NCBI RefSeq assembly: GCF_003030345.1
Contig: NZ_CP028158.1
Span: forward strand, 744,001 to 808,000
Direction of reading: 5' to 3'
DNA: 64,000 nt
Source of the DNA: Plantactinospora sp. BC1
GTDB lineage: Bacteria; Actinomycetota; Actinomycetes; Mycobacteriales; Micromonosporaceae
Position 1 is the stretch's first letter; each line of letters begins with the position of its first letter. Below are positions 23,100 to 24,291 of this stretch, piece after piece. A program made the translations under genes and the position numbers. The notes beneath the pieces were generated by a model that was not told the origin of the DNA, did not search any database, and saw nothing but the letters and a program-made list of their open reading frames with translations.

Positions 23100-24040
23100 C
23101 CGCACAGCCCACCGCCGTCCCCGCCGCCCCGACCGCACCGGTGCCGGCGCACCGAGGGCCGTTCCGCCCCGGTGACCGCGTCCAGCTCACCGACCCGAAG
23201 GGTCGGATGCACACCATCAAGCTGGAGCCGGGGCGGTCGTTCCACACCCACCGTGGCGCGCTGGAGCACGACGCGCTGATCGGGTTGCCGGACGGCAGCG
23301 TGGTCACCTCGACCGGCGGGACCGCCTACCTGGCGCTGCGTCCGCTGCTCGCCGACTACGTGCTCTCCATGCCGCGCGGTGCGCAGGTGATCTATCCCAA
23401 GGACGCGGCCCAGATCGTGGCGATGGGCGACATCTTCCCCGGCGCGAAGGTCCTGGAGGCCGGTGTCGGGTCCGGCGCGCTGACCTGTTCGCTGCTCAGG
23501 GCGGTCGGCCCGGAGGGCGAACTGCATTCCTACGAACTGCGCGAGGACTTTTCCGAGATCGCCCGCAGAAATGTGGAATCCTTCTTCGGTGGACCGCATC
23601 CAGCCTGGAATCTCCGGGTGGGCGACGTGGCAGACTGCCAGGAGTCCGGTTTCGACCGGATCATTCTTGACCTCCTCACCCCCTGGGAGGCGCTCGACAT
23701 GGTCGAACGCGCGCTGGTCCCGGGCGGGGTCTTCATCGGTTACGTCGCCACCACGCCCCAGCTCTCCGAACTCGTCGAGGCGCTGCGGGAGCGGGGCGGC
23801 TTCACCGAGCCGCGGGCCTGGGAGTCGCTGGTCCGGGACTGGCACGCCGACGGCCTCGCCGTGCGCCCGGACCACCGCATGATCGCGCACACCGCCTTCC
23901 TCGTGTCGAGCCGGCGGCTGGCGCCCGGGGTGACCGCGCCGCCGCGCCGTCGCAAGCCCAGCAAGGGCGCCGAGGCGTACGCGCTGCGCCGCCAGGCGCG
24001 GCAGGAGGCCGAGGCAACCTCCGGGAGGGCCGGGGAATGA
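23096..24040 (+). CDS. trmI: tRNA (adenine-58-N1)-methyltransferase
   Basis: TrmI methylates A58 in the T-loop of tRNA using S-adenosylmethionine. The 314-residue protein has an N-terminal beta-domain ([19 protein letters not shown]), the conserved [20 protein letters not shown] motif [12 protein letters not shown] (119-130) and [10 protein letters not shown]. It is the orthologue of Rv2118c. The C-terminus is a basic extension ([10 protein letters not shown]). The GTG start overlaps the protease stop, so the genes are coupled. Confidence 0.94.
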
Positions 24041-24105
24041 CCCTTCCCGCCGGAGTCGACGCATCAGCGGGCGTGCCGAGCACGGCGAGGAGACGGCATG
24101 ACTGA
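24037..24105 (+). CDS. Mini-ORF A (22 codons) after trmI
   Basis: The ATG overlaps the trmI stop (ATGA) and the frame runs 22 codons ([10 protein letters not shown]...) to a TGA that overlaps the start of mini-ORF B by 8 nt. It is the first link in a chain of overlapping frames up to the gene at 24288. The peptide itself is not recognised. Confidence 0.35.
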
Positions 24106-24265
24106 GCGCAGCGGGCGAGTGAGCCGGCTCGGCTCCGACGAGCCTCGTGAAGCCGACGAGCCTCGTGACGGTCCCGAGCCTCGTGAAGCCGACGAGCCTC
24201 GGGACGGCACGGGGCACGACGGTCCGCTGGATCCGACCCGGATGCGGAGCGGAGTGCCGGAATGA
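24098..24265 (+). CDS. Mini-ORF B (55 codons), repeat-containing
   Basis: Begins [18 protein letters not shown] and resembles the dop leader peptide [12 protein letters not shown]. Residues 14-37 come from four 18-bp tandem units (DEPREA, DEPRDG, PEPREA, DEPRDG). Its TGA overlaps the ATG of mini-ORF C (ATGA). No known family. Confidence 0.4.
   Translation: MTERSGRVSRLGSDEPREADEPRDGPEPREADEPRDGTGHDGPLDPTRMRSGVPE
24139..24210. repeat. Four 18-bp tandem repeats
   Basis: Units at 24139, 24157, 24175 and 24193, built on CGAGCCTCGTGA; units 1 and 3 are identical, so the array can also be read as two 36-bp units. It stays in frame within mini-ORF B. Confidence 0.85.
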
Positions 24266-24291
24266 GCGACCGGAACGAGGCGACGGCGTGA
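24262..24291 (+). CDS. Mini-ORF C (9 codons, MSDRNEATA)
   Basis: Starts on the ATGA that ends mini-ORF B and stops on the GTGA that starts the next gene. Its peptide resembles the MGKRSEAAA mini-ORF before dop, and the DNA before each junction is similar. Confidence 0.35.
   Translation: MSDRNEATA

Follow-up and report, generated by a model that had tools for sequence, protein, structure and literature searches.

A dispersed unit of about 80 nucleotides at gene start codons of Plantactinospora and other Actinomycetes, probably an inserted element coupled to its host genes by termination-reinitiation

The nearest working analogue of the unit described here is ORF-11 of the integron site attI1, a short open reading frame with its own Shine-Dalgarno sequence that supports the following gene by translational coupling; in the part of that report available to us, changes to the peptide matter little and changes to the initiation signals matter much (PMC8876359). 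Termination-reinitiation at ATGA overlaps, and also start sites hidden by structure, are described in the accessible portion of a second report (PMC6728339). Among dispersed repeats, the sections available to us present Rickettsia palindromic elements (RPE) and ERIC/RU-1 as small dispersed repeats with open frames that are tolerated in conserved genes (PMC10969869, PMC2229807), and the BOX repeats of pneumococcus as small, interspersed, structured and modular, with expressed ORFs (PMC3049150). REP sequences associated with RAYT are likewise short dispersed repeats with a hairpin, defined in the portion of text at hand as a 20-40 nt palindrome tagged GTAG or CGTC at one end (PMC3733652).

The unit came to attention in a window of 64,000 nucleotides from Plantactinospora sp. 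BC1, in the gap behind trmI, the gene for a tRNA m1A58 methyltransferase (ORF at 23096..24040, + strand; Pfam TrmI-like_N E 3.9e-29, GCD14). A preliminary description had claimed that the 247-nt gap (24041-24287) between trmI and the gene at 24288 is tiled by three mini-ORFs with the junctions ATGA, an 8-nt overlap, ATGA and GTGA; the coordinates hold and the junctions can be read from the sequence as claimed. The trmI stop TGA lies within ATGA at 24037-24040, where mini-ORF 1 begins (24037..24105, +, 22 codons, from its translation and alignment with sister species), perhaps an old diverged unit. The second frame (24098..24265, +, 55 codons, ending in RMRSGVPE before its stop) is a decayed copy, identified by a model match (E 2.7e-4) and by alignment with Plantactinospora mayteni (locus L009) and P. 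endophytica (L010). It measures 164 nt from start to start (2 mod 3), 84 nt (28 codons) beyond the 80-nt form, because its middle is lengthened, with the frame unchanged, by 18-nt repeats of the GACGAGCCTCGTGAAGCC type at 24139..24207 (+), seen in a repeat search and as an alignment gap. The third frame is a short 26-nt unit encoding MSDRNEATA (24262..24291, +) that closes in GTGA at the next gene; P. endophytica has MSDRAGVPA in its place. The distance from the first to the second ATG is 61 nt in the window and 62 nt in P. mayteni and P. endophytica, which accounts for the 8-nt overlap, since the 62-nt frame closes in ATGA. Behind this 62-nt frame P. endophytica carries a full 80-nt unit and the 26-nt short unit and P. 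mayteni one 80-nt unit, and the whole gap of P. alkalitolerans (L011) is 19 nt only. A profile seeded with nine copies matches the trmI gap in 11 of the 80 loci listed, in some of them in tandem (L052, L064, L081). The chain in the window is a decayed array, one worn example of a larger dispersed unit.

The gene behind the chain (24288..24860, +) starts with GTG and encodes 190 aa without a Pfam family at E <= 1e-5. Its neighbours in the window are trmI and the proteasome ATPase gene, and it has relatives of 82-98% identity in the 80 loci listed, the best named matches being P. mayteni and P. endophytica with 98% identity. Near-identical GGTGAGAAATGTCnCCG stretches are found 3' of this gene at 24871-24887 and 24922-24938, 51 nt apart.

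Some 3 kb downstream of the trmI gap the unit is present as a complete copy (27301..27384, +; model match E 2.8e-19), with 80 nt from start to start and 27 codons plus stop. It stands directly before dop, a Dop/Pup-ligase-like gene (27381..28898, +; Pfam Pup_ligase E 2.2e-192 from residue 5) whose start codon coincides with the ATG at the cassette's right end, and a hairpin at its right end (27347..27385, +; MFE -27.3 kcal/mol, z -3.1) is predicted to bury the dop AUG. A short unit encoding MGKRSEAAA (27275..27304, +) precedes the complete copy. The complete unit is present before dop in P. mayteni, P. endophytica and the window and absent from P. alkalitolerans and from L012, and at the empty site of P. 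alkalitolerans a homologue, MGERSEATA, lies directly before dop. A family-wide conserved upstream frame at dop was dropped as a candidate (35/71 loci). In general form the unit is ~80 nt, RTG-AGCGAGCGnAGCGAGCG…CTCATG…GGAG…GGC-ATG followed by A, and holds ~27 codons. The preliminary description was right that the peptides of the trmI gap resemble those before dop, namely MGKRSEAAA at 27275-27304 and the 27-residue peptide at 27301-27384. The two motifs it distinguished, M[ST]ER..R..RL and R.EA.A, are not separate peptides, being the two ends of one 80-nt unit, and its suggestion that the junctions do without Shine-Dalgarno sites fails, as GGAG or GAGG is found ~5 to 9 nt before each start.

The unit is dispersed over many genomes. 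A sequence-only model, R1, was built from a 25-copy alignment (A1) and includes the flanking ATGs; matches per genome are lower bounds, 25 to 150 candidates having been scored in each. R1 gave at least 17 matches (E <= 0.01) in the 8.33-Mb single-contig genome of the strain itself and matches in 7/7 genomes of the genus, from at least 9 to at least 53 per genome (E <= 0.001). In the family at least 46 of 81 genomes and at least 24 of 44 genera were matched (E <= 1e-6), and 35 of the 81 genomes gave no match at this threshold among the candidates scored. The exact right-end pattern was present in 33/200 family genomes. The DNA fetched for study contained 167 distinct copies after duplicate removal (193 matches before), and tandem copies 80 nt apart were recurrent. 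With a core model, R2, made without start codons from alignment A3, 8 of 197 genomes in a class-wide sample were matched, five of these outside the family, and 2 of 24 genomes in the order outside the family had one match each. Four copy-bearing loci had no covariance-model match in Rfam at E <= 0.1, and the copy at argG had none in phage records at E <= 1e-3. Plasmid records gave a single match, 27 nt and exact, between the hairpin part of the argG copy and the Micrococcus plasmid pSD10 (L272, 2960-2986); it is intergenic and was judged unrelated, possibly another hairpin repeat.

We conclude that the unit is probably a non-autonomous, small dispersed actinobacterial DNA element that inserts at gene start codons, with expression of the gene kept via termination-reinitiation. 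The element would enter at the start codon, cutting either just in front of the native one or just behind it, oriented with the gene, and the native ribosome-binding site, which would remain to its left together with a start codon, would then open the mini-ORF of ~27 codons. On its right side the element carries the GGAG motif and the hairpin, and its terminal ATG is joined to the gene's second codon. Since the length is nearly always 2 modulo 3 (80, 77, 74 ... nt), the TGA of the mini-ORF falls inside the ATGA of the gene start. A ribosome arriving from the native site would read the mini-ORF, open the hairpin that covers the new AUG, terminate, and start again at the AUGA of the host gene with help from GGAG. 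We propose that this hand-over from mini-ORF to host gene is why insertion is tolerated even in housekeeping genes and why it can recur in tandem; some of the genes with a cassette are presumably essential. Transposition would be the route of spread, and insertions that do not couple would be removed by selection. With moderate confidence we also favour a broader statement, that several families of Actinomycetes share a class of mobile DNA which targets initiation codons and brings with it a portable hand-over (mini-ORF, hairpin, Shine-Dalgarno sequence, new AUG) that leaves housekeeping genes unsilenced, its insertion perhaps guided by features of translation initiation or of the mRNA beyond DNA sequence alone.

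Empty and filled sites were compared between genomes. The argG gene lacks a cassette in G000, G001 and G004 and is preceded by exactly 80 additional bases in G002 and G003; G000 and G002 agree fully over the 34 bases that precede the insertion and the 18 that follow it. The ribBA cassette is missing from G002-G005 and present once in G000 and G006. The amylase gene has no cassette in G001, G003, G004 and G006, one in G000 and two in G002. At znuB the cassette is missing from G002, G003 and G006, present once in G000 and present in diverged form in G001. The SDR gene has one cassette in G002, two in G000 and G006, and none in the G003 counterpart, whose orthology is uncertain as it is only 70% identical. 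The glnP site is not counted as clean owing to a right-half remnant in G006. Presence of the cassette varies between sister species also at dop and at the 24288 gene. With regard to the target-site duplication typical of MITEs, RTGA is found at both ends of the cassette and may belong either to the target or to the element, and the right flank in G066 often has AC.

How the units reached these sites can be read in a second way that concerns the route of spread only: recombination or template switching between similar modules of ribosome-binding site and start codon, without a transposase, is possible, if rather doubtful. It would fit the search for a mover, in which a Y1 (IS200/IS605-type) transposase, PF01797, was found in just 1/7 genomes of the genus, while 7/7 carry copies; no unit match at E <= 1 lies beside the single PF01797 gene, and an IS200/RAYT transposase was rejected as mobiliser on the same count. 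No autonomous copy or parent transposon was seen in the 1.66 Mb examined, where the search returned 108 unpaired left and 20 unpaired right halves, of which the 25 and 20 inspected were diverged units. Tandem units at exactly 80 nt and the right end of the dop copy, which matches the local leader, also favour recombination. However, cassette ends and empty sites share only ~7-11 nt (by eye), which is short for homologous recombination, and the dispersal reaches dozens of sites. Transposition of a non-autonomous element is the route we prefer.

The frame of the unit is conserved. Unit lengths are 80 (88 copies), 77 (21), 74 (3) and 68 nt (1), all 2 mod 3, with 79, 75, 81 and 76 nt seen once each, so that 25 of the 29 copies of a length other than 80 nt are still 2 mod 3; many of the 77-nt copies may derive from one deletion. 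In 113/117 full-length copies the mini-ORF from the left RTG stops at the TGA inside the ATGA of the right start, and the four exceptions are one in-frame ribBA fusion (81 nt), two stops 5 and 18 nt off the right ATG, and one broken copy. Premature stops are absent from all 70 same-length copies, whereas random relocation of their substitutions yields a mean of 15.5 (minimum 7, 500 trials), and of the other frames of the 117 units frame 2 is stop-free in 35 and frame 1 in 2; as the copies share ancestry, these frame statistics are not independent. The peptide, by comparison, appears weakly constrained. Its rough N/S is 0.75 in frame 0 vs 0.95 and 1.46 in the shifted frames (53 units), and copies in another family end in RASCAHGAKRVRA where the others end in HGGTERSGVPA, with the same codon number and ATGA closure in both. 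A +1/-1 compensated variant, SERQRANHQ, keeps the length and changes the peptide. A function of the peptide was set aside on these grounds. The repeated cassette that the preliminary description suspected, one that keeps start-stop coupling at more than one gene, is strongly upheld at sequence level and far beyond two loci; the weight it gave to the peptides is not supported.

The right end of the unit is predicted to fold as CUCAUG-n-CGGCnC-loop-GnGCCG-n-CAUGAG, which would bury the new AUG. Over 125 distinct rows the two sides pair in 91.6% of cells vs 14-52% when slid, a lead that is in part due to the structure having been named by us and read from the same sequences. The pairs covary, with two-sided changes in 48 cells, and 0/500 shuffles paired as highly. 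RNAalifold on the gappy alignment A2 returned six pairs only. Five copies gave MFE values of -16 to -27 kcal/mol (z -2.4 to -3.1), and the decayed trmI-gap copy folds no better than shuffles (z -0.9). Outside the family, L359 has a strong fold with the stem CUCAUGCGCG/CGCGCAUGAG (z -2.4) and L371 a weak one (z -1.0). The downstream start is thus predicted to be hidden by a structure that upstream translation would open.

A start codon hidden by a conserved hairpin, behind a frame that is kept, would also be expected of a regulatory leader owned by the host, in which mini-ORF and hairpin form a translational attenuator tuning many genes, for example by ribosome stalling on the Ser/Arg/Glu-rich peptide, and several copies do precede biosynthetic genes (argininosuccinate synthase, DXS). 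We think this unlikely, since the peptide is weakly constrained and differs in its second half in the copies of another family, the downstream proteins form 74 clusters, and presence and copy number at the same gene vary among species.

The copies lie at the starts of genes of many kinds. Of the 138 copies whose right end is complete, 136 lead at the right-end ATG into a coding frame (the best coding frame, with an ORF no shorter than 60 aa); 108 of them do so directly and 28 via tandem units. The remaining two are one frame running off its locus and one copy at a locus edge. In a one-step test that used 136 of the 138 copies, two being without downstream DNA, 103/136 pass vs 78/467 other ATGAG sites, which include real gene starts. 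The 137 downstream proteins form the 74 clusters at BLAST E <= 1e-10. Pfam was run on ten downstream and four window proteins, and the ten comprise an SDR protein, an amylase, RNase Y, DXS, a rhomboid protein, RNase III, three ABC transporter proteins and argininosuccinate synthase; the names ribBA, znuB, glnP and the SDR subfamily are our reading of the sequences. In three of the ten the domain starts at most 8 residues from the new start. To the left (105 left flanks), GAGG-type bases are most frequent between positions -11 and -8 relative to the left start, as expected of native ribosome-binding sites.

Because R1 ends in ATG, the finding of ATG as right codon in 138/138 copies is partly by construction, a bias that the core-only R2 test removes. 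R2 was run on five genomes, two of which were studied in fetched stretches (40 from G066 and 20 from G072). In G066, which belongs to another genus and has a 74-nt unit, 57/64 matches close at RTGA, a test that itself requires A after the start, and 57/57 chains lead to a gene as judged by the best coding frame. In two of the 57 closures the mini-ORF begins at a neighbouring RTG and is no longer than 3 codons, and the seven exceptions comprise three in long in-frame arrays, three without a left RTG at the expected place and one closing elsewhere. Under the same requirement 18/21 matches in G072 close at RTGA, with 18/18 chains reaching a gene and three exceptions. Outside the family 15/15 fetched loci (13 of the 19 class-wide matches and 2 of 2 order matches) close at ATGA and are followed by an open frame of 70 codons or more, the criterion here being the open frame and not the coding-frame test.

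The bases around the insertion allow a further reading, in which the element targets a DNA motif, C-RTG-AG, that is merely common at start codons, and the open frame and overlap are by-products of a fixed length. The base after the right ATG, which lies outside R1, is A in 80/80 distinct non-tandem right flanks, a point in favour of the coupled element proposed above, and is followed by G in 93% of them; by a rough count A follows inferred starts without a cassette in 33/66 and 10/20 cases. With tandem copies included, AG follows the right ATG in 104/110 copies vs 10/66 other starts (28 of the 138 copies, from the pattern-chosen loci L203-L232, were left out of this count), and the base preceding the left start is C in 84% of the 105 left flanks vs 27/66. 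This reading is nevertheless quite improbable, because ATGAG occurs elsewhere (389/467 such sites failed the same kind of test), yet 136/138 copies lead into a coding frame, and because the bases after the gene start codon in the 57 G066 cases are AC in 30, AG in 21, AT in 5 and AA in 1. The absence of premature stops and the 2-mod-3 indels point, moreover, to selection on translation. That short frames tile a high-GC gap by chance, open frames being common at 73% GC, has next to no probability and was rejected in view of homologous copies at many genes, the reversed right-end pattern found in 0/200 genomes, and the empty and filled sites.

The unit differs in some respect from each of the described systems. 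ORF-11 is a fixed integron site, as far as its available description goes, whereas in the present case the dispersed unit and the coupling ORF are one and the same (PMC8876359). The geometry and the presumed mechanism are those of the ATGA overlaps, but the accessible part of that report concerns neighbouring gene pairs (PMC6728339) and here the overlap would be installed by a dispersed unit. A stop overlapping the next start was found in 113/117 copies, in 57/64 and 18/21 R2 matches and in 15/15 loci outside the family, and the element appears, as judged from sequence, to work like a termination-reinitiation module. RPE, in the portions of text at hand, fuse in frame inside proteins, whereas the present element is placed at the start codon, where its own frame stops and would hand over at ATGA; in-frame fusion is the exception here (1/117 copies; ribBA in L187 and L005, arrays L305 and L310). 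Long BOX elements encode ORFs on both strands, and the part of their description available to us mentions neither insertion at start codons nor stop-start coupling (PMC3049150). Compared with REP/RAYT, the unit is 80 or 74 nt long, has other ends and is located at gene starts, with the Y1 transposase confined to one genome of the genus, and the A1 consensus has no GTAG or CGTC tag (by eye). The ends of A1 are not mutual inverted copies (by eye), so the terminal inverted repeats of MITEs are missing and the sole strong inverted repeat is the right-end hairpin. We file the unit under none of MITE, REP and RPE, since those of their defining features that are testable here were lacking or gave no clear outcome. 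The words 'start codon' are absent from the main texts of two small-repeat reviews (PMC10969869, PMC2229807), and searches of the open-licence PMC full-text literature, judged by title and start of abstract and with subscription papers outside their scope, found no paper describing such an element.

Mobile elements mostly avoid or break genes, and entry at the start codons of housekeeping genes, if true, would be a new way of coexisting with the host. The same genes with and without a cassette in sister species would offer a natural test bed for termination-reinitiation, and the units would supply new start codons, N-terminal extensions and mini-proteins. The annotation of gene starts in these genomes would also be affected.

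Several smaller observations concern the frames around the units. The ribBA cassette is 81 nt long in L005 (1438-1521, - strand) and L187 (1501-1584, - strand), one base longer than the usual form, and the enzyme consequently carries the peptide as an in-frame N-terminal fusion; L005 has ACG in place of the right ATG. The G066 arrays in L310 and L305 form one long frame of repeated 24-/25-residue peptides (VRERSERTIG... and VSERSERTS...) before the gene. Some proteins downstream of copies themselves start with MSERSER, MTERSER or MSERSE (L096, L192, L213, L222), and these starts are perhaps remnants of left ends fused in frame.
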